Below, one piece after another: positions 41,145 through 62,359 of a DNA stretch of 64,000 bases. The stretch comes from Enchytraeus crypticus (lineage: Eukaryota > Annelida > Clitellata > Enchytraeida > Enchytraeidae), in the NCBI GenBank assembly GCA_905160935.1, contig CAJHZI010000192.1, forward strand, positions 663,501 to 727,500. Direction: 5' to 3'. Within the stretch, counting starts at the first letter, position 1; every line of letters starts with the position of its first letter. The position numbers were made by a program, and so were the translations under genes. The notes under the pieces were generated by a model. It searched no databases, was not told where the DNA came from, and saw nothing but the letters and a program-made list of their open reading frames with translations.

Positions 41145-43434
41145 ATGCCGGGATTTGAGAGCTTCGAAGAATTCTGTCAGCTAATGCTCGACTTTCAATC
41201 GCTACGAGTACAGAAGATGTTCGTATCTGGAAGTCAGGCAGAGGTCGAGGGCAATGATGAGAGCATAGTGAAGTTCTGTGGAAAGAACACGATGGATGTG
41301 GACTATATGATGTATAATAGAGACGCTTATGTGTTCAAAGATTTTGATTCGGTGCCATCAAATTACAGAGGAACTATTCTAAGATACGTAACTGAGGGAA
41401 TTCACCCATGCTATGCTCGACTGTTGAAATGTGACAATAGTGAACTTGTATTCGAACACATAGAAAAAACAATTACCTTTGATTCTGATCTTATTAATCC
41501 TCATTCGAGATATCTTACTGACCGGAAAACCGGGCCATCCATTAAAAGTAATATTTCTAGCAGTGTTAGTGAATACTTTTACCCGTTCAATGAACTAAAA
41601 GAGATGAGCGCTTCTGAAAGCGATCACGTGGTAGCACGACATAGTCCATACTGGTTGGATGAAGCTGCAGAATGGATTAACAGACAACGACACCGAGACT
41701 CTGTCCCAAGTCATGTTATCAAACGCATCGTCAGGCATGGGATAGATTTTGTTTGCGTCTCACACAAGGGTTATATATTACGAGAACACCAGAACGAGTG
41801 GAGACTATCGTTTTCTATGGCAGAACTCATACTGATCAAGAGTTGGACTAGACAGCAGAGAGCTACGTACAGAACTCTGAGAGTTTTACTAAAGAGGATA
41901 TCTTGTGTTGAGTCGGTTCACACTCTGTGCACTTATCATTTCAAAACTTTAATGCTTTGGGCTGTTGATACGAAACCACAGTATTTCTGGCAAGATTCTG
42001 TGTTGCTTTCTTCTGTACTCGAGCTCATATTGGAAATGATACTCTGCCTGAAGATTGCAACCTTGCCACACTATTTTGTGCCAACAAATAATCTCTTTGA
42101 TAATCTTCTCTCTGAGGATGTCCGTGATGATATAAGGAATATGATCGATATCTACGAAAACTCTGATTTAGTATCGAATGTGTTATATTCCTGTATAAAC
42201 GAAGAAATCTCCACAAAAGCAGAAAATCTGTTCGTCTCAATGCCCGCTCTGTTCTACGACAGTCTTGAAATCTCAACCAGTATGCGCCAAGAAGAAACCA
42301 GAGTAGCTGTGAAGACTGGAAATATTAAAGACATTAGTATGAATAAGATAACACAAGAATTGAAGAAGGTATTCGATTTTGCTGAACTCATTCAATCAAC
42401 AAATATTAACGAGATATTGTGCTCTTCGAATACGTTTGATTTAAGTCAGTGCGACGACGCTGAGATTAATAAGAAATCCAGTGTGTCTTCACAAAAAGAT
42501 TTGAATATATATAGGTTATTTAATTGCCCTAAGGAACTCCACAAAACTATTCATAATTTCTATAGAGTAATAAGAGATCCATCACGTGATAAAGACATCA
42601 GACCATGGCTACATAATTTCAATTCGTGCAGAGATCTTGATGAAACGGAAGCTTTTCGCAAAGACCAGATATCAACACAAATAATACATGAAAAATTATA
42701 TTCCCGGAGTGAATCCATTGTACCATCAGAGTGCACTTCTGAAACATCAAATATGCAAATATCAGATTTGGAAATTAAAAGTGACATGTACAATGATGTC
42801 GAAAGTAATCAGTCCTTGGACACACTGGCCGAAGAATACGAACCAATTCATTTAGGAAGTACCCAAACAATAACTAATCTTTCATTAATAGTTCGTGGCA
42901 CATATGGCACACAGTATAACGATAATGACAAATACTACAAATTTTGGCCAAAACACTCCCCTACAGCTTCGATATTTTGGATCATTAAAAAAGTCTATAC
43001 AGCTAACTATTACTATACACTATTTTCGGATTTGGAGAGTACAGTAGAAATTTGCGAGCAGATTATTCAAGCTTTCAATTACTCAATAGGAAATAAACGC
43101 TTTGCTGAGCTTTACGTACCATTAATACTCACTACTAAATGGATTGAGAGGTACGATAGAGAATTACAACAAGTGTTAGGTCTAGCATCATTATGCAGAA
43201 TTCTCATTTTTGGGCTAGACTATAATCAACCAGTGCATATTCCTGTCTGTCCAATGCAGTTTGCCCTCTATCTCAAAACTCGCTCTTATCTAGAAACAGA
43301 TACGACCGGTAAGCAGCTAGAAGCCTATCTGGAATATATGAGGCATGGACTTAATCTCTGCTCAGATTTGTCGTATTTTGGTTATGGTTTGGCAGCATTA
43401 TCTGGTGCTCAGAGATTAATTGAAATAGAGAAAG
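41145..43434 (+). CDS. Mab-21/cGAS-like nucleotidyltransferase exon, gene copy 1
   Basis: Main exon of the first tandem gene. Numbering from ATG 41145, it shows the Mab-21-family signature: GS motif (G29-S30), then D51-V-D53-Y-M, a likely third acidic residue D160 before a hydrophobic stretch and W170, then EWRLSFS (218-224) and TYHFKTLMLW (263-272), which match the helical C-terminal half of Mab-21/cGAS proteins. No cGAS zinc ribbon is seen. In the family, such enzymes sense nucleic acids and make cyclic dinucleotides, though many members are inactive; activity here is inferred only. Residues after about 340 are a polar linker and a helical region. An acceptor (TTTACAG, ending 41129) lies 15 in-frame bases upstream, so an earlier coding or 5' UTR exon probably exists. 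The donor AAAG|GTAAGT at 43434/43435 ends the exon in phase 1; unspliced reading stops at 43451. The exon joins in frame to 48054. Confidence 0.85.
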
Positions 43435-43596
43435 GTAAGTCAAATCGTTAATTGTTGTACAACAGTTCAGCAGTGTTTTCAGAAGAAAACTTATTTTAAT
43501 AGTTTTGTAATGAACTAATTAAAATAATACCATTAATAATAATATACAACCAGTCTAATAGTAATTGCATATCCCTGTTCTTCGATAACTCCTCAG

Positions 43597-46500
43597 AAGT
43601 TAAGGTGGGGAGAGACACTCCGATTTCAATTTTTGAGCAGTCACCTCTTTTTGGTACGCCAACTGTGCTCGGCGCGTCAGGGTTAGAAATTGGAATGAAG
43701 CCAATGCTACGTGAGTCAGAATTGAGTTTAATCTACCCTTTCAAGGACAACTTAACGGCCTCTCAGGCGGCTGTTACCTGCATCAAGTCAGTTCTGGGAG
43801 AGAGTCAAGGTAGCAACCTCACGTATCTAACTCCAGGGTCCGCGGTAAGTGTATCTGACGAGAAGATCAAGGGAAGTACGAAATTTTGCATAGAACAAAG
43901 CGATAAGCTGCTAGCATTCAAGAGAAAAGTGAGAGTAAAACAATTAACGGAAACTCATGAAAGTGTTCCTAATCAATATGGTGCTATAGAACATCTTGAA
44001 CAATATAGTGCTGACGTACATCATGAACATCGCTGTGCTGTTCATGTTCAGCAAGGGGAAGATCTTCATGAACAGATTGGTGCTGAAGATCATCATGAAC
44101 AGCTCGATTTTGAATATCATCATGAACAGCACGGTGCTGAAGTTCATCATGAACAACATAGTGCTGTAGATCATCATGAAAAGCTCGGTGTTGAAGATCG
44201 CCTTGATCAGCTCGGTGCTGAAGGTTATCATGAACAGCACGATGCTGGAAGTCATCATGTACAGAATAGTGCTGAAGATCATCTTGAACAGCTCGATTTT
44301 GAAGATTATCATGAACAGCTCGGTGCTGAAGTTCATCATGAACAGCTCGATTTTGAAGATCATCATGAACAGCTCGGTGCTGAAGTTCATCATGAACAAC
44401 ATAGTGCTATAGATCATCATGAAAAGCTCGGTGCTGTAGATCATCATAAACAGCTCGGTGCCGAATATCATCATGAACAGCATTGTGCTGGAGGTCATTA
44501 TGAACAGTTTAGTGCTGAAGTTCATCATGAACAGCTCGGTGCAGAAAGTTATTATGAACCGCTCGGTGCTGGAATACATCATGATCTGCAGTGTGATGAA
44601 AATCATCATGAACATCACGGTGCTGAAAATCATCGTCAACAGTATGAGACGCATGACCGAATTGTTAACCGCCGCCGTCAGACACTTCATAAGATACAGA
44701 AGAAGAAGTTGCAGTCGTCGTGCCTTCAGATTCAGCCGGTGCTTCATTTCAATCTCCTGAAGCAACAACATCTTAATCAGGGCTTTGATCGACAGCGTAT
44801 CGTGTTAACCGTGAGCCCACCTGGATCTTCTGGCTCCCTGCCCCCACCGCATTCCTCAACCCACATACCTCTGCAAGGGGCAGGGCCTCAGCTCTCAAGC
44901 CTGGCCACTGTGAGGGGTGACTCCGCAGTGAGGCAATCCACGTGGATGTTCATGGGTCGCGTGCGGCAGAACCCGATCGGCTCACCGGCTGGGTTCACCT
45001 CTCCGGTTCATCTGCGTCCTGTCTCCGCCACCGCTCAGCCGCCGCAGGTTGGCTTCGCTCAACCCACGGCTGACCTGCTCTCTCCGTTCCACGTCTACCG
45101 TCCGTCCAGTCTAAAGTTCAACGCTCTGATACAACCTCTCGGTAGAGCTCAGTCTGCTCCCACGAGATCTGATCTGCAGCAGCTTGGTCCGCCACTGCTA
45201 CATCAACTACAGCCTGGTGCTACGGGAATGAAGCAGGAGCGCATCAGTCAGTTGATTGGCGGGGAGCAATTTTCTTTGTTATCGGATTCGGAGATGTGCG
45301 AGATGGGAGGGGAATCTGAGCGCACTTCTACCTCCCCGGGTGATTTCGCAAAGCGTTCGATGTCTCTATCACAGAACTCTAGTAGACCCTGCAGTAGATT
45401 CACCTCACACGACAACACCAAGCCCTTTACCTCACATGACAACACCAAGCGCCCTATCATGCTAAGCAGGAAAGTCATCAGGCGTCATGCCAGCGACGCT
45501 GAAGTCTACGAATGTGTGTCTGAGAATAAATACGAAATTGACCGACGAATAATCTTAGAGAAAGACTCCGATGATACTGATTACGGATTTCATCTCTACG
45601 GAAGATGTCCTACGGTTATTTCCACCATTGAACCAGATAGTATAGCGGAGAGACAGGGGGTTTTGCTGGGAGATCGGCTGATTAGTGTTAACGGTTATAG
45701 TGTTGCGGAGGCGAATGAAGTGACAGTGTATGATCTAGTGGCTAGAGGAGGTAACAAAGTTGAGCTGGGTTTGGCATCAGGCAATATATGTCGGAACACG
45801 TGTGTATGCTCCGGGTATCTGTGGAAGCAGGAAGGGACTGTGATTAGGGCTTGGAAGAGAACATGGTGCGCCCTGAAAGACGATCATTTTCTTTATTTCT
45901 ATCGACATGAAGCGGACAAGAATCCCACCGGCGCCGTTTGTCTCATTAATTACATGGCAAAGAGATCCGGGGATCTTGGACTGAATCCAGCGAGCAGATT
46001 GAGCGGAAGTCCCGGAGATACGCTAAATAGAGGCGGTGACGGTGTCCCTAAACACGGCATCTCTAGCAGCAAGTCCAGCAGTGCCAAGCGATGCGGGTTC
46101 AAACTCGAGAAGTACGGAGAGAGGACGCTGTGTCTACAGGCTGATACAGAGGAGGAGATGAGCAAATGGGCTGGAGCGATAAACTCTATTGAAAAGAATG
46201 TAAAGAATCCCGACAGTTGGTTGGCCACTAGTGTCCACAACGTTGGACTGGCCGCCCTGGATATAAAGAACCCGGACTGTCACGGATACCTCATGAAGAC
46301 AGGCAACCATCGCAAGACCTGGCGCCGGCGCTACTGCGTCCTCAAGACGGCGTGCTTGTATTACTACGCCGATCAATCTTCCCATACAGCAAAAGGTGTT
46401 GCTCACCTTCATGGGTATAAAATAGAAGAAACGCTTCCGTACAACAGAAAGTTTGGTTTTACGCTGCTGCCACCTGTCGATGGCATGAGGATATTCTACT

Positions 46501-46598
46501 TCTCCGCGGATAACGAAACGGATTTTAAAAGATGGACATCCGCCATGAAGAAATCAATAGGGCGCTGGGTGAAAGTAGAAGACCTTGAGCAATTTTAG
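43597..46598 (+). CDS. PDZ-PH-PH protein, intronless retrocopy inside intron of copy 1
   Basis: A single uninterrupted frame of about 1,000 codons between the two exons of copy 1. Numbering from 43605: about 125-345 is a run of roughly 24 nine-residue His/Glu-rich units (GAEVHHEQL type); 345-640 is Pro/Ser-rich and low complexity; about 640-725 is a PDZ domain (carboxylate loop YGFHLYG, then GDRLISVNG); about 733-863 is a PH domain with a long insert (GYLWKQ...W); about 890-985 is a second PH domain (GYLMKTGN...W). Such proteins are usually membrane-proximal scaffolds binding phosphoinositides and C-terminal peptides. There is no in-frame ATG before 43695, so the copy is 5'-truncated, starts at that Met (about 968 residues), or is entered by splicing at the acceptor ending 43596. 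GC and CpG content look higher than in the flanking intron. The lack of stops suggests recent insertion or selection. The parent gene is not identified. Confidence 0.7.
43978..44645 (+). repeat. 27-bp coding tandem repeat (about 24 units)
   Basis: Within the retrocopy, a 27-bp unit encoding nine residues of the type [GSD]-[AF]-E-[VD]-H-H-E-Q-[LH] is repeated about 24 times with point variation and one irregular unit near 44040-44075. Pairs of units (GAEVHHEQL then DFEDHHEQL) recur, which suggests expansion by multi-unit blocks. The array is long enough to keep spurious frames open on the opposite strand. Confidence 0.9.
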
Positions 46599-46978
46599 AA
46601 TCAGGCATAGTCAACTCAATGTAGTCTAGAAGATAATATGCTAATAATAATTATTGTAAAAAATAATAATATAACAACATAGTACAACAATAATGGTTTT
46701 AGTAACAGTTGGTGCTTGAATAAAATTTAATTCATATATCACACCCATGTGTTAAGATATCTAAATCAGATTCATAGTTTATCCAAATTGAGCCATTTCC
46801 TTGGTGATAGAATCCATAATGTTGATTAATTCATATTATTTCTTATCTTCAATATCCACATTTTTGCATGTGATTTTCGGAAATTTCTCAAGAAATATCA
46901 ACTGATGGTTGTAAAAGCAATAAGAATTCAATTAAACCAATTGTATAAAAAGTCATTAAAATGATAGACTAAACTTGA

Positions 46979-47011
<33 letters not shown>

Positions 47012-47744
47012 AAAATAATTAAAATTTATTTTAAATGACGTAAATTGAGTAGAAGATGGCTTGCTGGCATGTTTTTCTACGGCGGATAAGTGGATGCAGG
47101 GTTCAAATCCAGAGCTTTCTCCTTCACCAACGTGCTATAGAGCAGGAATTTGATATTAAACTTTTCTTTTAACTTCAGTTTTATTCTTTAATTTAAATTG
47201 ATGTTTCAAAAACACGTTTAAAATGTAATCTCAAAGCGGATGATACTGTTTTTTCATATTTAGCCAATTTATGTTAGAGATTTGAAAATTTATAATTTAA
47301 TATTTCTTTTTTTATTGATTCCATATTTATTGCTTACTGTCAAGGGCCTGAAAAGCCAAAATACTTTATACCATTCTGGTAATTTTAGTGCAGATACCAT
47401 ATTTTGAGAAATTCTTTAATTTGAGCTTAATATTGTCGGTTATTTTAGTTGTAAATTTAGTTTCACTAATATATTTTTAAAGTTAAAAATCAAGAAAAAG
47501 TTACTTGATTTAACAACTGAGTTTGATATAACCAATAATTCAAATAAAGAGTTAAATTCATTTCTTTTGTTGTTAATCAAAATATTTAACTATAAAAGAA
47601 AACACAGTCATCGGGTAGGCTGTGCTGTTTAGGTTTGTAGCGAGTAGCCAAACTAATATTTATTGAACACTAAAATCGTTGCAAACTGTCGAGAAACTTT
47701 CTTCACTTTGGTATAATCATGGCGATCAATATTTTTCAGTGCCA

Positions 47745-47970
47745 GTTTGTGTCCCGAGTTGCTGAAGAATAAACCAACCGTAAACTGCACGTATCGTAAA
47801 AGTAGACAAAGAGCTAAGCACCGAACCAACGTTAGAAAGAGCATTCGGTTGGTGAATGTCTAGACTACTGAAAAGTTACAGAAATTTCTAAAATGAAGAA
47901 AGAAATTTATACTCATATCTCAGCCCCAGTTATGCTGGAATGTAAGGGAAGAAAACGACGATGACGATTA
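47745..47970 (+). repeat. Family D 3' end inside the copy 1 intron
   Basis: Has GAAGAATAAACCAACCGT, AACCAACGTTAGAAAGAGCA, TTCGGTTGGTGAATGTC and a tail AAAACGACGATGACGAT. Absent from the copy 2 intron. Confidence 0.7.
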
Positions 47971-48053
47971 TAAAGTTAGACTGACAATTCAATGCATAGA
48001 TTTTTAATATTAATATATTATTTTTATCATTTGGCATTAATTTAACATTGCAG

Positions 48054-48946
48054 AGCAATCTTCCGGCAGCAATGTGAAGGTTATCAAGCATTACGATATG
48101 ATAATGGGAGTAACTGTGTTGAACGATGAGATCTTCGTGTTACGAAGGGATCAGTGGAAAGTGAACGTCTATGACTTACACACGCTGTTAGCCTCACGTG
48201 ATATCGTTATACATGATCTGATTAGATCTAATGATCTCGTTGGTTGCTCCTACTACAAAGCTCTCTACATATGTGGAAGGAGCGGCATAGGCGATAATCT
48301 GCAGCAAGGCACTATCTTCAGAGTCGAGCTCTCCAATGATTGCATCACAAGCTGGAATTTAAAAGCGAACTATATGCCTCAATGTCTGTTGATTACTCAT
48401 ATGCGCACTCTTCTTGTCACAGTGTGGATCAAACAGGCCATGAAAAGAGCTGCTAAAGAAAGTGAATATACTTATCAATTAGCAGAATACACTAGCTATG
48501 GGAAACTTTTGCGGGAGATAAAACTTGATGCAAGTTTGTCTGAAGTGTGGCAAACAGTGCAACCGTCTCTTGGTCAATTCTTCGTTACATGTGGTACTAA
48601 CCCACTAAATCCAAGCATGCTATGTCTAATTAATAGCAGAGGTCAGATGATAAATTCCTACAGCGACGAAGAGCGAGGAGGTGAACAATGGACGCCTGGT
48701 CTGCATTCAATAACGATAGACGAGATTTCTAGACACTTATATGTTTCTCAAGGCATGAATGAAAAAATACTTTTGTTCGATTATGACCTAAATTGTTTAG
48801 GTACTATTCGCACACCCTTTAACATCTATCATCCTCGTAGGCTGTACTATCATTCACCTACCGACGAATTGTTTATCGGGGAAGTGTCTGGAAGATTGAC
48901 AATCATCAAATATCCTGCTTTAACTATTCCTGATCTTGACTTCTGA
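48054..48946 (+). CDS. Beta-propeller (NHL-like) terminal exon, gene copy 1
   Basis: The last exon of copy 1. The acceptor CATTGCAG ends at 48053, and a phase-1 junction with the Mab-21 exon (G|AG = Glu) keeps the frame to the TGA at 48944-48946, giving a predicted protein of about 1060 residues. Roughly 290 residues show about six repeats of a hydrophobic strand pair ending in patterns such as KVNVYDL, GTIFRVEL, YQLAEYTSYG, MLCLINSRG, KILLFDYDLN and RLTIIKYP, typical of NHL-like six-bladed propellers. Such domains usually bind protein or RNA. The joining is supported by conserved splice sites and phase in copy 2. The exon also has an in-frame GTG at 48074 but no nearby ATG, so it is not an independent gene. 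The family assignment is by pattern only; WD40- or Kelch-like alternatives are less likely. Confidence 0.75.
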
Positions 48947-49007
48947 ACTTACACTTGGTATGAATAATTTTCATCTCCAATTAATATTTTCATCATAAAA
49001 TACCATC

Positions 49008-49097
<90 letters not shown>

Positions 49098-49309
49098 CAG
49101 AGAATCCAACTGAAAATCCCTCAAATTTTCCTCTGCCATTAGTGTTGTCACATAATCAAATAACGGAAATTTCGCTTCATGCATTATCAGAGAGTTCAAG
49201 TAAATTAATTACTAAAATTTTGTAAATGTTTTCCATGCGTACAGTAGCTGTACATGTACATTTACGGAATAAAAAATTGAAGTATCCTATATTTTTTAAG
49301 TAATTAATC

Positions 49310-49367
<58 letters not shown>

Positions 49368-49399
49368 TAAGATGCTTTCGAGAGATCTAGACAAATGTA

Positions 49400-50930
49400 T
49401 TAAATCTTTATTTTTCGAAATTCATGGCAGTAAGAAACACATCAATAGAAATTAAACACAGCATAAATCAATATATTAAAGAAAATAGAGAAAGTACACA
49501 TATTTAACTAGAGTACCAAACGTAACCCCTTCTCAAATATCATTAGTTAGGGCAATAACTCTTTAAAATAATTCCTAAATATATACCTGATACAGGCCAA
49601 TGAGTCTTGACTCTCAATTGAATATTTTCTTTTAATGGATTCATAGTCCAATTAGTCAGGATAATTAACTAGCCTCTGAATTTTTAGTTACGCAATTAGA
49701 AATTACTGATTTATGCAAAGAGTTAAATTCATAGAAATTAAATATGACATAACAGACTTAATATAAAGCTGAGAGTAGATACGCTTCATAGAATGCAAAA
49801 AGCAGATATTTATTTATCTCGCGTATAAAGTCAACCGGTAAAGATTGATATCGGCGAGGATATCTTCCCATTCATAATATTAGGCAAAAGCTTGTGTCAA
49901 GTTGGCTCCTCAAAAGTTTGTTACCTACCAAACGATACGATCCTAATTTACGAGATCTGCAGCCAAAGTTAAATCATAATTTGTTATGCATATTTGTGAT
50001 GTAGGCCTACGTTTGATTTCGAATGTTATGGTTGTCGAACTACACTTACAGAGCTGTTTAACTCGCGTACATATAAGCCTAGCTGTTTTACTGCTTGCTA
50101 GTTGCATCACGCGCAAAGCATAGGCCTAGGCTTCTTTATTAGCAGCTGCTACATGTACGTATACATGTAATCCTGCTAGACATACTCGTGCTCTTACTAT
50201 GTTGCTAGCTCAAGCTGCATTTTTTTAAAGTTAATTCTGCTAGTATTAATCTACTACTATTGTAATATAGACTAGTCACTATAATAGTACAGTATTACAA
50301 TTATAACTTCTTTCAGCCCATAGTTAAATAAGTTAATATAATTATATAATATCATTCTCATTCCTTGAATCCACTTTAGGTAGGGTCTTTTATAACAAGA
50401 AATGTGTAATCTACGGTTGATCTATTCGTTAGCAACCTGGGTAGGCCTACAACACGTGTAAGTAATTACAATGTATATAATATAAAATTATATATTATGT
50501 GTTTAATTATCAATAGGCTATTGATAATTAAACTTTAATTGATAAATTAAAGCAGTAGCCTATTTTGGAGCAGGCCTGTAATTTTCCATGAGAAGGACTG
50601 TGACATTTTTCCAACGTAAGATGAGTGGATCCAGTTTTTCAACAAATAAGCGACGTAAATTAGGTTCTACTTCAAGCATACAACTCGACGATAAATAATA
50701 ATCACTGTAGCACGTACATTATCTCCAAAACCATGGAATTTTACATGATTCCTGCAAATCTTTAGGAATTCAGAGCCTTACCTTTGGTAGAATGCTTGGT
50801 TTTGGGTAACTTCTATATGTAGGCCTACAGGTTGTTGAAAACAGTACAATTCTGTTTGGCTGCATTATTCTGCAATTGTTAATCTCTTTATATCAATATC
50901 AATGATTCAATATCAATAGCAAATAATCAT
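49400..50930. other. Spacer between tandem genes
   Basis: AT-rich with at least four TAGGCCTA motifs and CATGTA-rich words. No coding signal. Confidence 0.55.
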
Positions 50931-50934
50931 TATA

Positions 50935-51519
50935 AAGCTGTATAAACGATTTTAATGTCATTTTCATCTCTCGAAGGCGATATCAGTGACGAGAGAATCC
51001 TGGATTTGAACCCCACACACAGGGGCGGATCCTGAAATTTTTTAAGGGGGGGCCGAAATTTTTGTTGAGAGTGTACATTTTTTGCTTTCTTCAGTAGATA
51101 TGACGCCACTAGACAAATTTCTGTGGGAGGGGGGGAAGCTCAAAATTTAATTGTTTATTACTGCGCGTTCGGCTCATAGAGTGAGTGTATCCCAGTACCT
51201 TACCCCCCCCCCCCCTCCCCGCTCATACCCGTCAGGGGAACACCTAAAATCCCACATTTGTTTGGAAAAGTAGGTTAATTTTTACACCTCTGAAGAAACT
51301 GCGGATCTCGGCGAATTGCAAAAGTGACCTAATTTTGGCGGTGGGGGGGCTTAAGCCCCTTCGAGCCAAGGCTGTTTGCATCACTGCTACAGGACAGAGT
51401 TTACATTTTTTACTTGCACCCTTTTTTCCTCTAATGCAGTGGTTATGCATTGGTTCCTCCACTGCCCACACATGCTGATCCGCGGTAGGATATCTTACCG
51501 ACATCGCCACTGGCTCCAG
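50935..51519 (-). repeat. tRNA-derived SINE split by a hAT-type element
   Basis: The tail part is 50,935-51,019 and the head part about 51,465-51,519 (CTGATCCGCGG ... CGACATCGCCACTGGCTCCAG). The two halves rejoin exactly if the hAT-type element and one duplication are removed. Confidence 0.85.
51020..51464. mobile_element. hAT-type nonautonomous element inserted in a SINE
   Basis: Starts CAGGGGCGGATCCTG and ends TTCCTCCACTG, with a perfect 8-bp duplication CCCACACA at 51,012-51,019 and 51,465-51,472. The interior matches the 18.3-kb element but is shorter. It splits a SINE copy, so it is younger than that SINE. Confidence 0.9.
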
Positions 51520-53175
51520 CTAGATAAATAATCATGAATTGCCATAGAGACGTCCAAATTGCCACATCAGAGGTGCAACTAAACGGCGAGAAGAGACACA
51601 AAGAATGAGAGATGCCCAGGCACATAAAAGGATATACAGCAGGACAGGTACAATGAACAAACCTGAGCGAGTAAAGTAGTAAACGTCAACACAACAGAAT
51701 TTAATTATAATAAACTATTACATCAATTAAGTAGAACTTACAGGGTAAATGGTTATATCAACCAAGACGATATAGGGCATGAAAACATAAATTAATTCGA
51801 CCTGACAGTATTATAGCATTTCGATAAGATACATGTATTGTATTATTGCGGAATGTCTGTGAGATTTTTTATCAATTTCTCATATAGTTTATTTGCTCAT
51901 CTCGACATAGGTTTTACTAGTAACAGATGCAAACATGTACTAGATAAACTTTCAAGCAATTTGAAAGAGGCTACCATTAAAATAGCCTAAGCTCTGTGCG
52001 GTAAAACGATAACTTGTAGCTAGCATACATCTGCTCAAGTCTGTATTACAAAATTTCTACACTACCGTACCGTACGATACTAACAGCCTGTACGGGATGC
52101 GTGTTTACAAAGAGCTCGCGAGGACCTAGACTGATAATGCTTTCAATAGAACCAAAGTATAGGTCTACATGTATCTTTTCAGTTAGCTACAATATTAGGC
52201 ATATAGAATCTGTTTACGCTTGAGCCACGTGATAAACTTAACTAGAGTCGCTAATGCTGATATAGGCCTACATGTATCTTGCAAGAAGCAAAGTTAAAGT
52301 AAGATAAATACGTGTACATTTAAGTTGTAATTTGAAAAACCTGTGTGAATGATTTATTAGATTGTACATTTTACAGTAACGTGCCTTTCGAATTAGTTTA
52401 ATGAAAGCATGAATACTTTAAGCGACTTATTAGAATATTCAGGTTTGTGACAAATGTATTCGAAATTAAAATTCTAAGGAATTCCAAAAAGCTAACCCTC
52501 TTTAATTTTTGTTTCTCTCTCTCTCTATATCCCACTCCCTCTATGGCAGCTTTTCTTCCTCTATCTTCGGTTGTGGCCGTGGCCTATCACGTAACTTCTT
52601 CTGGTTATACGAAATGAAGTCTGGTTTCAGCCATTCATTTTAAGAAGTTAGCTTATGAGCAGAGAGCCTATAAAGAATTAAGCTAGCCACAAGTCCTATA
52701 TGCAGGATCATTGGGAGCATTGGTGATTGGGATAAACAATTTAAACCAATATTATTAGGATTAGAAGTTGAAAAATATAGATATTAGATCCACAACATTA
52801 TGCTGATGCGGCCGCCTGTTTATCGTTTTGACAGACCTTACTGAGCAGTTTATGAATCTAAATAGCAAAGTTAATTATGGAATTGGTTAGTTAATTAGAT
52901 CAGTTATTTAATCAAGCAAGGAACTGAAGTTAATTGTCTCGCTCACAGTTTCCAGATGCAACAATTTTCAAGCCATTGAACAGAGACAACATGAGCTTCA
53001 ACTTAAAATTTTTAAAATTCTTCAACTTATACTTTACAATTCTCTTTAGTTCATATAATTGCCGCTTAAAATAGACACAGTATTTAATTACAAATTGTCA
53101 AAATTTGGTATACCTTTTAAGTTAACTTACTGGTTCTGGGTTTTTTATTTAACAAAAAAATCCACTTACAGGTAA
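51520..53175. other. Spacer upstream of gene copy 2
   Basis: No coding signal recognised. Any promoter or first exon of copy 2 would lie here or further upstream, but I cannot place it. Confidence 0.5.
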
Positions 53176-53219
53176 TGTATGTATGCTGTAATCAATATTT
53201 TCAGGACCTAAGTACAAAC

Positions 53220-55509
53220 ATGCCGGGATTTGTGAGCTTCGAAGAATTCTATCAGCTAATGCTTGACTTCCAAACGCTGCGAGTACAGAAAATGTTCGTA
53301 TCTGGAAGTCAGGCAGAGGTCGAGGGCAATGATGAGAGCATAGTGAAGTTCTGTGGAAAGAACACGATGGATGTGGACTATATGATGTATAATAGAGACG
53401 CTTATGTGTTCAAAGATTTTGATTCGGTGCCATCAAATTACAGAGGAACTATTCTAAGATACGTAACTGAGGGAATTCACCCATGCTATGCTCGACTGTT
53501 GAAATGTGACAATAGTGAACTTGTATTCGAACACATAGAAAAAACAATTACCTTTGATTCTGATCTTATTAATCCTCATTCGAGATATCTTACTGACCGG
53601 AAAACCGGGCCATCCATTAAAAGTAATATTTCTAGCAGTGTTAGTGAATACTTTTACCCGTTCAATGAACTAAAAGAGATGAGCGCTTCTGAAAGCGATC
53701 ACGTGGTAGCACGACATAGTCCATACTGGTTGGATGAAGCTGCAGAATGGATTAACAGACAACGACACCGAGACTCTGTCCCAAGTCATGTTATCAAACG
53801 CATCGTCAGGCATGGGATAGATTTTGTTTGCGTCTCACACAAGGGTTATATATTACGAGAACACCAGAACGAGTGGAGACTATCGTTTTCTATGGCAGAA
53901 CTCATACTGATCAAGAGTTGGACTAGACAGCAGAGAGCTACGTACAGAACTCTGAGAGTTTTACTAAAGAGGATATCTTGTGTTGAGTCGGTTCACACTC
54001 TGTGCACTTATCATTTCAAAACTTTAATGCTTTGGGCTGTTGATACGAAACCACAGTATTTCTGGCAAGATTCTGTGTTGCTTTCTTCTGTACTCGAGCT
54101 CATATTGGAAATGATACTCTGCCTGAAGATTGCAACCTTGCCACACTATTTTGTGCCAACAAATAATCTCTTTGATAATCTTCTCTCTGAGGATGTCCGT
54201 GATGATATAAGGAATATGATCGATATCTACGAAAACTCTGATTTAGTATCGAATGTGTTATATTCCTGTATAAACGAAGAAATCTCCACAAAAGCAGAAA
54301 ATCTGTTCGTCTCAATGCCCGCTCTGTTCTACGACAGTCTTGAAATCTCAACCAGTATGCGCCAAGAAGAAACCAGAGTAGCTGTGAAGACTGGAAATAT
54401 TAAAGACATTAGTATGAATAAGATAACACAAGAATTGAAGAAGGTATTCGATTTTGCTGAACTCATTCAATCAACAAATATTAACGAGATATTGTGCTCT
54501 TCGAATACGTTTGATTTAAGTCAGTGCGACGACGCTGAGATTAATAAGAAATCCAGTGTGTCTTCACAAAAAGATTTGAATATATATAGGTTATTTAATT
54601 GCCCTAAGGAACTCCACAAAACTATTCATAATTTCTATAGAGTAATAAGAGATCCATCACGTGATAAAGACATCAGACCATGGCTGCACAGTTTCGTTTC
54701 GTGTAAAGATCTTTATGAAAAGGAAGCTTCTAGCAGCAGAATGCAGCTAATTTTATATTCCCGGTGTGAATCATGTTTTCCATCGAAGTTCACTTCTTCA
54801 ACATCATTTATTCAAAAATCGGATTTCGAAATTAGAAGTGACATTTACTATGGGGTCGGAAATTATCAGTCCACGGACACAATAACAGAAGAATACGAAC
54901 CATCCCTAGATGCATTGGAGATCGGGAACAATCAAGCAATATCTACTCTGTCACTAATAGTTCGTGGTGAAAATGGGGCAAAGTTTAATGACAATGAAAA
55001 GCATTACAAATTTTGGCCCAAACAATCTCCTACAGTTTCGATATTTTGGATCATTAAAAAAGTCTACACAGCTAACTATTACTTCACACTATTTTCGGAT
55101 TTGGAGAATAGGCCTACAGTTGAAATTTGTGAGCAGATTATTCAATCTTACAATAAGTCCATAGGAAATAAACGCTTTGCTGAGCTTTACGTACCATTCC
55201 TCCTCACAACTAAATGGATTGAGAGGTACGATAGAGAATTACAACAAGTGCTTGGTCTAGCAGCGTTATGCAGAATTCTCATTTTTCGGCCAGACTATAA
55301 TCAACCAGTGCATATTCCTGTATGTCCGGTGCAGTTTGCCCTCTATCTCAAAACCCGATGTTATCTAGAGACAGATATAACTGTTTGCCAGATAGAAGCC
55401 TATCTTGCATATATGAAGCATGCATTGGATCTCTGCACAGATATTACCTATTTCAGTTATGGATTAGCAGCACTTTCTGGAGCTCTAAGGATAACTGAAA
55501 TTACTAAAG
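53220..55509 (+). CDS. Mab-21/cGAS-like nucleotidyltransferase exon, gene copy 2
   Basis: The second tandem gene, with the same exon length and phase as copy 1. ATG 53220 lies 15 in-frame bases after an acceptor (ATTTTCAG ending 53204), and the donor AAAG|GTATGT is at 55509/55510. The GS motif (G29-S30), D51/D53 and D160, EWRLSFS and TYHFKTLMLW are identical to copy 1. Residues about 25-488 appear identical at the DNA level to copy 1, while residues 1-24 and 489-763 differ at many positions. The divergent part includes a two-codon insertion (Arg-Pro) at 55111-55116, created by the 8-mer TAGGCCTA. The frame reads into the intron and stops at 55574 if unspliced. The predicted role is the same as for copy 1: an innate sensing or signalling nucleotidyltransferase, inferred from family membership only. 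Confidence 0.85.
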
Positions 55510-56583
55510 GTATGTCAATTCGAAAAGACATAATGTTATTCAGCAATGTTTTTACAAAAACTGTACCTTTATAGTTTTAGATAGCGGTTTTTACATTAAA
55601 AATAAAGATATATAAAACTGTATACATATAGCTAACATTATAAAATGGCTTATAAATGTAGAATATATTTACGCTATACCATGCACTGTACAAATATTTA
55701 TTCTAAAAACTACTAAATCATCAATATCAAAGATATATATTTTGTAGTTTAGTTGTGTGCTCTCAGTCTCAGCCAGGCCTATATTGCAGAAGACAGGTTT
55801 AACTCTAGTAGCCTTAAGAGCATGCCAGTTATGCGCAAGCACTCGAAATTAACTATATACCTATTGAATAGCAGTCGGGTAACTGTACTACAATGCTATT
55901 TATAAGGACTTCTAGTATTATCTTTAGCATTTACTTTTTCTAGCCTATAAAAATCTTTTTCAATGGATATTTCCAATGTAATATTTTAAATTTTGATAAT
56001 CACAATCGATGTTTAATCCTTGCGTATTTCCATATATTCTTGTTGGTAGGTTTGATGTTAGAAACTTTGTCAATTAAGCGCTTAATCTTTTCCATTTCAC
56101 TTATTATATGCTATTTTATTGATATTATGAGCCTGAAAACCATATTCAATCTACTTATGCCATTTTGGTATTTACAGTAGGCCTATTCAGAAATTTTGCG
56201 AAAATCCATAGCCTATGCTAAATATTGCAGCTTATATTATTTTGAAATGACTTAAATATTTAAATTTTAGAGTTAAAGATTAGCAAGGAATATTACTCAA
56301 TTTATCAGAATTTGAATTAACCAATTCAAAATTAGGAGTAAATTTAATTCATTTTTGTTATTAATTCAAAAATTTAAACTCTAAAACGATTTAGTGTCTT
56401 AGACTATTCAGTGCTATTTGTGTTTCTGCTGCGTCACCAAATTGATATTGAACACTTATATTGTATACAAGTAACATATGAGAAACTTTCATCAATTTGA
56501 TTAAGTTAGGCTGACAAAGAATTGCATCGGTGTTTAACATCAGTATATTATTGTAATCATTTGGCATTAATTTACAATTGCAG
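55510..56583 (+). other. Intron of gene copy 2
   Basis: A 1.07-kb AT-rich intron starting GTATGT and ending AATTGCAG. It keeps the ancestral layout without the retrocopy. It carries one TAGGCCTA motif near 56,178 and no other recognisable gene. Confidence 0.75.
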
Positions 56584-57497
56584 TACGAAGTTCCGGATGT
56601 AATGTGAAGGTTATCAAGCACTACAATCTGATAAAAGGAGTAACCGTTTTGAATAATGAAATCTTCGTGTTACGAGATTTACAGTGGAAAGTCAACGTGT
56701 ATGACTTACATACTCTGTTAGCCTCGCGTGATATCATTATACATGGTTTGCAAAGACCTAATGATCTCGCTGGTTGCTTCCACTACAAGGCTTTATATAT
56801 TTCTAGCAACGGTGGCGTAAGAGATATGCAGCAGGGAACTATCTACAGAGTCGACCTCACCAATGATTCCGTCACAAGCTGGAGAATTAAAGATAACCAT
56901 TTGTCGCACTGTTTGTCGGTTACAACATTTCGCACTCTACTTGTCACAGTGTGGATCGATCACAATCAGCGTGGAGCAATTGGGGTGAATACACCTACTG
57001 AAAAAGTTCAATATACGTATAAGTTAGCAGAATACACAAGTCATGGAAAACCGTTGAGGGAGATAAAACTTGATGCAAGTTTGATTGGAGTTTGGCAAAC
57101 AGTTCAACTGTCTCGTAGTCAATTCTTTGTCACATCTGGCATTGATCAGCAACATCCAAGCATGCTCTGTTTAATTGACAGTGAGGGTCAGATCATAAAT
57201 TCTTACAGCGGTGAGGAACGAGAGAGTGAAGAGTGGACGCCTGGTCTGCATTCAATAACGACAGACAAGATTTCTAGACACTTATATGTTTCTCCTGGTA
57301 TGAATAAAAATATACTTTTGTTCGATTATCACCTAAATTGTTTGGGTAGTATTCGCACACCCTTTGACATCTGTCATCCGCGTAGAATGTACTATCATTC
57401 ACCTACCAACGAATTGTTTATAGGAGAAGAGTCTGGAAGATTGACAATCATCAAATATCCTTCTGTGGCTAAGCCTGGCTATTTCCCACTGAATTAA
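56584..57497 (+). CDS. Beta-propeller (NHL-like) terminal exon, gene copy 2
   Basis: Last exon of copy 2. The acceptor AATTGCAG ends at 56583, and G|TA = Val restores the frame through to TAA at 57495-57497. Joined to 53220-55509 it predicts about 1067 residues. The blade pattern matches copy 1 (KVNVYDLHTLL, GTIYRVDL, YKLAEYTSHG, MLCLIDSEG, NILLFDYHLN, RLTIIKYP), with clear amino-acid divergence throughout and a slightly longer loop between blades 2 and 3. The acceptor region, including the motif CATTTGGCATTAATTTA, is shared with copy 1. The retained frame in both copies suggests the propeller fusion is functional, not a read-through artefact. Confidence 0.75.
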
Positions 57498-60845: not shown

Positions 60846-62359
60846 CAGACTGGGGCAAAAAAATAATCCCCTAGCGAAATCTCAATAACATTGGCGAAAC
60901 TCAAAGTATTTGTACCAAATTTCTGGAGCTTCTAGACGAAGAATTTCTGCATATAACCTATAAATTTTATGAAAATCTTTTGAGCGGTAACAAAATTAAA
61001 GCGTTTCTACGAAAAAATGCACAAATCAATTTTAACAAGGCATTTTTTTACCAAAGGTCTTAGTAACTTCGATAAAACTTAAAATAATTTTACGAAATTT
61101 TCGGAGCTTCTATAGGTGGAATTTCTACACACATCCTGAAAATTTGGTGAAAATGTATTCAGAAGTAAAGAAAAGACAGCGTTTCTCCTGAAAAATTGTT
61201 AATATCAATTTTAACAAGGCTTATTTAAACAAAACTACCGGAGATTTTCTTCAAATTTAGGAATAATTTTAAGAGAAGAACGACTTTTAAGCATCTTTTA
61301 TTGGGCAACTAACAAGGTAGTGCAGGCATACAGGGTGAGTAAAAAAAAGATAACACCTGCAAAAAGTTTGAATATCTCAGGCTATTGTTAATATTTGTAA
61401 ATTAAACTTTTACCAATTAATAAGGGACTAATTTCTGGTGGGGTGGCCAATTTTCATCCATTTTGGTGCATAGATTGTCCAGTTATGCAAGTTTCAGCAG
61501 AGCAACCCCCCATTTTTACCTTAAAATGGCGTTTGCTACAACGGTAAGGGCAGATTGCACTTCATTGACGAGAAGGTAAGGTTGAACTCTCAGTATTACG
61601 TCAGTACTTTGCTTCCGGAGCTGTTTGATGATTGCCATGCTCTTCTACCAAATGGTTTCATCTTTCAGCAGAATGGTGCTCCGGCTGATGCATCTCGTCA
61701 TGCACAGGAAAGGATCAGCGAGAGAAACCCGGATTACATCAAGAAGAATGAATGGCCTCCAAACTCACCCGATCATAATCCTCTGGATTACCACATCTGG
61801 GGAACCATGCTGATAGAGATGCATCTCTATCAGAAACACCAGCCGAAGCCTAAAAACAAGACAGAACTGCAGGAGGTGCTTTACGCCATTTTTAGGTAAA
61901 AATAGGGGGGTTGCTTTGCTGAAACTTGCATAACCGGCCTGCCTATGTACCAAAATGGATGAAAATTGGCCGCCCCATCAAAAATTAGTCCTTTAGTAAT
62001 TGGTAAAAGTTTTATTGTAAAATATTAACAATAGCCTGAGATATTCAAACTTTTTGCAGGTGTTATCTTTTTTTTACTCACCCTGTATACTCCACCACTC
62101 AAGTAAACGGCCCTTTTCAGTGTCGTTGTTTTCTTAAAAAGGAACGACCGACATTGCGAAAAGCCTTGTTGAACTCGATTTTTGCACTTTTCACGTAGAA
62201 GTGCTGTAATTTCGTAACTACAGAAAATATTTTCACCAAATTGGCAGGTTTTACGCAGAAATTCCTCCACTAGAAGCTCCGAAAATATAGCAAAGATATT
62301 ATGAGTTTTCTCGAAGTTATTGAGATTTTGCTAGGGGATTACCTTTTTGCCCCAGTCTG
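60846..62359. mobile_element. TA-flanked element with long inverted repeats, host of a nested mariner
   Basis: The ends read CAGACTGGGGCAAAAA and its reverse complement, each next to TA. Similarity between the arms continues for several hundred bases (for example TCCCCTAGC...ATCTCAATAA, and GGAATTTCT...AATTTGGTGAAAAT at 61,120 against 62,230-62,270 reversed). No transposase of its own is recognisable. It looks like a MITE-like, fold-back Tc1/mariner relative. Confidence 0.8.
61331..62085 (+). mobile_element. Mariner-type element, internally deleted, nested
   Basis: Same termini as the 11.9-kb element (CAGGGTGAGTAAAAAAAA), TA duplicated on both sides, inserted into the left arm region of the outer element. 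It keeps a transposase core in one frame (61,555-61,899: HFIDEKVRLNSQYYVSTLLP, FIFQQNGAPA, ISERNPDYI, NSPDHNPLDYHIW, KPKNKTELQEVL) and then runs straight into the terminal region. Both the N-terminal part and the C-terminal tail are deleted. The QQDG Asp is again Asn. Confidence 0.9.

Follow-up and report, generated by a model that had tools for sequence, protein, structure and literature searches.

Fusions of animal cGAS-like receptors (cGLRs) with other modules are known, and those named in the accessible text of PMC9980059 are with ankyrin, TPR or death domains (the last in coral) or are multi-cGLR arrangements, with a category "Other" of <0.5%. In oyster, according to the accessible part of PMC8195603, some TRADD-N proteins carry a Mab-21 domain followed by TPRs and others carry WD40 propellers. 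In mammals, TRIM56 binds cGAS at its regulatory domain by way of an NHL-homologous region (PMC5807518, accessible sections), and viral RNA is bound by the NHL-like repeats of TRIM56 (PMC11768893, accessible sections). Here, we describe two tandem genes, named gene A and gene B, located in a stretch of 64,000 nucleotides (the window; G000:C110:663501-727500) of the annelid Enchytraeus crypticus, whose genome was examined as 524 Mb in 802 contigs. In both genes, an exon for a Mab-21/cGAS-superfamily nucleotidyltransferase is predicted to be spliced to an exon for an NHL-type beta-propeller. As judged from the sequence comparisons given below, the fusion of Mab-21 and NHL appears to be real, recurrent in this genome and unusual as a combination, and a sensor mechanism would be the likeliest of several explanations for it.

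Compared with animal cGLRs (8gjy cGLR1, cGAS and MB21D2), genes A and B share the Mab-21_C domain and the GS..D.D..D residues, and these enzymes were their best sequence matches in PDB; they differ in having an SGS motif, a spacer of 106 residues from D53 to D160, and about 400 residues past the Mab-21_C match together with the C-terminal NHL propeller. With TRIM-NHL proteins (TRIM2/3/71, Brat, Thin; TRIM56-like) they share an NHL propeller that is C-terminal and encoded by a separate exon, with a phase-1 junction being possible, but their N-terminal part is a cGAS-like enzyme. Neither of two TRIM exon queries matched any part of the window with an E of 1 or below, and a Pfam scan of exon 1 returned Mab-21 domains only, so that the RING/B-box of TRIM class VII was not found there; DED and TRADD-N were not among the Pfam matches of exon 1 either. 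As far as the accessible parts of the cited sources go, the oyster TRADD-N proteins resemble these genes in that a Mab-21 domain has been shuffled into large lineage-specific immune architectures, but WD40 propeller and Mab-21 are alternatives there, whereas here an NHL propeller follows Mab-21. Similarly, the mammalian TRIM56-cGAS pair resembles them in that a cGAS-type enzyme works jointly with an NHL-type region, but mammals use two proteins, whereas here there is one predicted chain in which the ligase part is absent. No description of a fusion of Mab-21/cGAS with NHL was found in the literature accessible to us, with the reservation that Table S2 of PMC9980059, which lay outside the comparison, may list NHL fusions; the accessible part of PMC10732462 contains neither "propeller" nor "NHL". 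Viral contigs (79 pattern stretches) and prokaryote genomes (27 stretches) yielded no confirmed relatives, PADLOC returned 0 families and NCBIfam gave nothing useful.

The exons and introns of the two genes were as follows:

41145-43434, + strand: gene A exon 1, Mab-21/cGAS-superfamily nucleotidyltransferase with HhH/H2TH domain and family-specific C-terminal region (Pfam and PDB matches)
43435-48053, + strand: gene A intron, phase 1, GT-AG, 4619 nt, probably enlarged by a retrocopy
48054-48946 (coding to 48943), + strand: gene A exon 2, putative NHL-type beta-propeller and stop (sub-threshold Pfam DUF5128 match; profile A3)
53220-55509, + strand: gene B exon 1, paralogous Mab-21/cGAS-type exon (88-89% amino acid identity to A; Mab-21_C 7.6e-16)
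55510-56583, + strand: gene B intron, phase 1, GT-AG, 1074 nt
56584-57497 (coding to 57494), + strand: gene B exon 2, putative NHL-type beta-propeller and stop (69-70% amino acid identity to the propeller of A)

Exon 1 of gene A comprises 763 codons plus 1 nt, and joining it to exon 2 gives a stop-free frame of 1060 amino acids. The joined frame of gene B has 1067 amino acids by arithmetic from the ATG at 53220, and it is also stop-free when read from an ATG 15 codons upstream (1082 amino acids). Both donors are GT, both acceptors are AG, and all four splice sites are in phase 1. The exon coordinates proposed in an earlier note on this DNA, including the junctions 43434-48054 and 55509-56584, turned out to be exact to the base, with the phase and the open frames that it had described. 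Since an AG directly precedes, in A as in B, the start region that they share, a further 5' exon may exist, and the predicted start is provisional.

Assignment of exon 1 relies on both domain models and structures. Pfam Mab-21_C scored 58.6 and 58.5 bits in the two window copies (cut-off 24.1), which places them in the Mab-21/cGAS superfamily. When the single exon 1 protein was searched against PDB, the nearest sequences were cGLR1 (8gjy, 6.8e-12) and MB21D2 (4.3e-11), and these values improved to 4.9e-20 and 1.1e-15, respectively, with a six-row family profile (A4). The match of this profile to 8gjy begins at the third acid and spans the helix bundle, and it sets D160 of gene A opposite the acid of SVDLTL in 8gjy. 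This alignment gives substance to the D160 that had been called plausible from the letters alone, and it ruled out D201, which had been considered as the third acid. The GS pair (residues 29-30), D51 and D53 are present in both copies, in agreement with the earlier note. All four elements were invariant in the 16 aligned members of the family, and equivalents were seen in L028, giving 17 of 17. Because these members reach down to about 34% identity to A (about 34-50% outside the window), this conservation argues for a working active site. We judge it somewhat probable that the product of exon 1 is an active nucleotidyltransferase, and the fused proteins probably work like cGLRs.

The propeller was recognized less directly. 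In the Pfam scan of exon 2 of the window alone, the six-bladed propeller model DUF5128 reached 18.9 bits (cut-off 22.9), and a search of PDB with a single propeller sequence gave 0 matches at E 10. When a profile of seven propeller rows (A3) was used, the best PDB match was the NHL domain of Thin (8.8e-9), followed by TRIM2 (7.4e-7) and then TRIM3, TRIM71 and Brat. In addition, Pfam NHL (cut-off 20) was passed by two of the five other fused paralogues described below (L025, 23.6 bits; L036, 24.1 bits), and it was above cut-off in the TRIM locus L045 as well. The profile matches and the scores of L025 and L036 together identify the NHL propeller that belongs to TRIM class VII, and the NHL-like propeller claimed for the window, joined to a Mab-21/cGAS-type exon, is thus borne out by the family profile. 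The bacterial-type propeller, which the DUF5128 score had hinted at, was dropped in favor of TRIM-NHL on account of the profile matches. The nearest propellers to A, among whose loci are TRIM genes, share about 42% identity with it, compared with 31-36% for the other fused propellers.

A genome search with exon 1 listed 89 matches (the best 59 of 182 candidates scored, therefore a lower bound), which were merged by hand into 59 places by joining the parts of one place. Outside the window there are 57 of these places; the downstream stretches of 16 were read, and five of the 16 contained a propeller exon (L024, L025, L036, L037, and L039). The seven loci, A and B included, have the same exon order, and donor and acceptor are in phase 1 in all of them, the phase of L039 being read in the piece after the break because its exon 1 frame is broken upstream. 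Exon 1 of four of the five further fused loci is 40-43% identical to that of A, and that of L039 is 44% identical over its first part. Among the 59 places listed, seven have a propeller on the same strand within 6 kb downstream and two have one upstream; the latter can be explained as neighbors in tandem arrays. In an exon 1 tree with 16 rows (seven fused and nine unfused loci; L028 omitted), a branch supported by 100/99 separated the fused loci from the unfused ones. In fifteen 10-kb stretches around other Mab-21 matches (L009-L023), neither a propeller (best E 0.13) nor a close relative of exon 1 (best E 5.1) was found. Two relatives of the fused genes, L038 (C366:909000-912500) and L039 (C242:135570-139500), have broken exon 1 frames and are possibly pseudogenes; no propeller was found in the 2.5 kb past the match of L038. 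A second group of Mab-21 genes, with open frames of about 1100-2500 amino acids, was observed at L005 (C173), at L008 (C121) and at similar places on C121, C3, C400 and C717; an ankyrin repeat was above cut-off in the stretch of L005 scanned, and none was found in that of L008 at E 0.01.

The propeller exon itself belongs to a much larger set. Searches with propeller A (132 matches, the best 132 of 321 candidates scored) and with propeller L036 (125 matches, the best 125 of 325), both lower bounds, were merged into 176 listed places, some of them possibly on duplicate contigs. Within 8 kb upstream, a TRIM (RING/B-box) exon was found in 47 of these places and a Mab-21 exon in seven; none had both partners and 122 had neither. 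These partnerless exons, which sit on contigs C256, C702, C789, C205, C257 and others, may reflect the depth of the listing and long introns, or may hide other partner domains. Among six propeller places read upstream, L040, L041 and L045 showed a RING and B-box exon before the propeller, and the three TRIM exons scanned all contained Pfam RING and B-box above cut-off; L042, L043, L044 and L054 gave no TRIM match in 3-5 kb upstream (3 kb in L054). All three TRIM junctions (L040, L041, and L045) offered a GT in phase 1 close to where the TRIM frame ends, together with acceptors compatible with phase 1. Conversely, when the genome was searched with the L045 TRIM exon, 123 matches were listed (the best 111 of 284 candidates scored, again a lower bound) and merged by hand into 108 places, or 109 with C185:227759, which is not part of the count that follows and lies on a contig without a listed propeller. 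Among the 108 TRIM places listed, 42 are followed by a propeller within 6 kb and one has it upstream. On these comparisons, an origin of the propeller from TRIM-type genes is highly probable, and the best reading would be that exons were shuffled between genes of the TRIM-NHL and the cGAS-like kind. The earlier note had treated the locus as a matter of two genes joining Mab-21 and propeller; its domains and residues stood, and the ligand-recognition or effector-docking role that it suggested for the propeller keeps the rank of a proposal, but it had missed the very large family of propeller exons, part of which lies behind TRIM exons, the five more fused loci, and the 52 of 59 listed Mab-family places with no propeller within 6 kb downstream. 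Two places on C343 may represent further architectures: a propeller at 1542508-1543155 within an open frame of 1973 amino acids, and a TRIM exon at 1551460-1552503 within one of 1185 amino acids.

Comparison of the two window genes revealed an exact tract of 1394 bp, without any difference, between 41217-42610 (A) and 53292-54685 (B), both on the + strand. It corresponds to codons 25-488, that is, the enzyme and the helix bundle, and leaves the C-terminal part and the propeller outside. Nucleotide identity in exon 1 is 90.3% over the 72 bases before the tract and 81.4% after it, and it is 79.7% in the propeller exon, 49.3% in the 5' flank and 61.2%, with many gaps, between the intron of B and the last 1074 bases of that of A. 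Between the fused loci L024 and L037, identity amounts to 82% and 85% for the two exons and to 46-48% for the intron. The ratio of non-synonymous to synonymous substitution rates (dN/dS) between A and B was 0.46 in exon 1, 0.47 in its 3' part and 0.42 in the propeller; three further exon comparisons gave 0.37, 0.51 and 0.34, so that all six lay within 0.34-0.51. Recent gene conversion would be the simplest cause of the exact tract, which could alternatively stem from a very recent exchange or an assembly copy. Since A and B are identical there, they are not independent evidence, and their active-site residues count as one observation.

The interpretation that we prefer, and to which we assign about an even chance, is that the tandem genes A and B belong to a clade comprising at least seven loci, all of which splice a cGAS-type exon to a TRIM-type NHL exon, with the propeller sensing and the enzyme signaling. 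Exon shuffling across phase-1 introns would have put a cGAS-like exon in the place of the RING/B-box exon of a TRIM gene, once or twice. The propeller would then provide the surface for recognition and bind RNA or a protein in the manner of TRIM-NHL propellers; binding of the ligand there would cluster or release the enzyme, and this would make a cyclic or linear nucleotide to be read by STING or another receptor. That the propeller acts as a sensor of a ligand or a partner is, taken by itself, evenly poised. Matches to STING_LBD (PF15009) were found in 10 exons on three contigs, all above cut-off and one of them only jointly with its neighbors, and a cyclic-dinucleotide receptor is therefore likely to be present in the same genome; the contigs are C790, C276 and C406, some of which are possibly duplicates.

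Several observations weigh against this interpretation. With regard to the domains, the Pfam Mab-21 nucleotidyltransferase model scored 14.1 bits on exon 1 of the window (cut-off 24.1), the window propellers stayed below every Pfam cut-off, and the other three of the five fused propellers missed the NHL cut-off, two of them being incomplete in the stretches scanned. AlphaFold predictions, made for the two exons apart, were unusable both for the propeller pair (A1, mean predicted local distance difference test (pLDDT) score 36.4) and for the pair of Mab exons (A2, from two sequences only, mean pLDDT 29.0), and they speak neither for nor against the two folds. The predicted core of the window genes is acidic (isoelectric point 5.9-6.0), and that of L024 and L037 is basic (8.9). 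With regard to the origin of the propeller, 122 partnerless places out of 176 mean that TRIM genes are not established as the sole home of these exons, and phase 1 is only compatible with the TRIM junctions, where GTs and AGs of other phases are also available. When 20 propellers were placed in one tree, the window pair did not group with the other five Mab-21 propellers, implying two changes, and trees with a single change were obtained in 0% of 200 bootstraps; an approximately unbiased (AU) test did not reject one origin of the Mab-21 propellers (p 0.113). Finally, no propeller was found within about 2 kb downstream in any of the 10 more distant members read (L026-L035), and none is present within 6 kb downstream at 52 of the 59 places listed for the Mab family, so the core function of the family does not need the propeller.

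The chief competing explanation, possible if rather unlikely, is that the proteins are fused but catalytically silent, the Mab-21 part being a kinase-binding scaffold and the propeller docking its partners. According to the accessible part of PMC12928593, three shrimp Mab21 proteins with kinship to cGAS bind neither double-stranded DNA nor double-stranded RNA, make no cGAMP and activate IKKepsilon, which also speaks against the sensor that we prefer. The published cGLR motif, h[QT]GS [X8-20] [DE]h [DE]h [X50-90] h[DE]h (accessible text of PMC9980059; h set as VILMFYWAC), matched in its strict form one of 16 readable rows (L034; L028 was outside this test) and neither window copy, because SGS replaces [QT]GS and the spacer exceeds 90 residues. 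For that reason we place these genes in the Mab-21/cGAS superfamily only, and not among cGLRs in the strict sense. On the other hand, a silent scaffold would have no need of GS, D51, D53 and D160, which are kept in 17 of 17 members, A and B counting as one. With similarly limited probability, the enzyme could be active and sense by the surface of its own nucleotidyltransferase domain, leaving the propeller as a localization, autoinhibitory or ubiquitin-pathway docking module. This would agree with cGLRs at large, of which 87% are single-domain and which hold the ligand on the back face of the nucleotidyltransferase (PMC9980059, accessible text), and with the many family places listed without a nearby propeller. 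It fits less well with a propeller drawn from a large and divergent family of exons, a pattern expected of recognition modules, and with the non-basic predicted core of A and B.

Much less probable is that each locus consists of two separate neighboring genes never spliced together, with the Mab-21 gene ending at a stop in the intron and the propeller gene lying apart. Exon 1 does meet a stop soon after the donor in both A and B, the 10 more distant members without a propeller end in a stop, and an ATG precedes the propeller domain in three of the seven fused loci (L025, L036, and L039). However, the phase-1 junction recurs in seven of seven loci, the other four have no in-frame ATG upstream of the propeller domain (the first ATG of the propeller exon of B is at residue 81), and TRIM loci have the same exon layout. 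We regard a fused gene as very probable. Least credible of all is that A and B are decaying or mis-assembled duplicates without function. The exact 1394-bp identity could be an assembly copy, the exon 1 frames of L038 and L039 are broken, and some listed places have identical scores on two or more contigs, as duplicate contigs would; yet A and B have joined open frames of more than 1000 amino acids, dN/dS is below 0.5 outside the exact tract, and there are five further loci.

Within the intron of gene A, at 43503-46598, an intronless open frame of 1031 amino acids with a PDZ and two PH stretches was observed. A poly-A lies beside it, near 46979-47008, and a 12-bp direct repeat of A/T only flanks it. 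This frame matches several pieces on C647:687184-699115 with 84-96% identity, resembling the exons of a parent gene, and a 99% identical fragment is present on C723. It is probably a processed retrocopy unrelated to gene A. Another open frame, at 61525-61899 of the window, resembles, by eye, a mariner-type transposase.

A broader version of the sensor interpretation, which we regard as quite unlikely and advance with reserve, is that cGAS-like enzymes and TRIM ligases share one fast-varying set of NHL exons as interchangeable receptors. A swap of the N-terminal exon would convert a ubiquitin-ligase sensor into a nucleotide-messenger sensor for the same kind of ligand, and gene conversion would keep the enzyme uniform while the propeller diverges; for any claim of selection for a uniform enzyme, the one pair A/B is too small a sample. 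If the predicted chain is made and active, Enchytraeus crypticus would have a cGAS-type enzyme that carries its recognition module on a separate exon, one that is exchangeable and also used by TRIM ligases. Were this true, the way in which cGLRs gain new ligands would become testable, and the two-protein partnership of cGAS and an NHL-TRIM protein known from mammals would be united here in one polypeptide.

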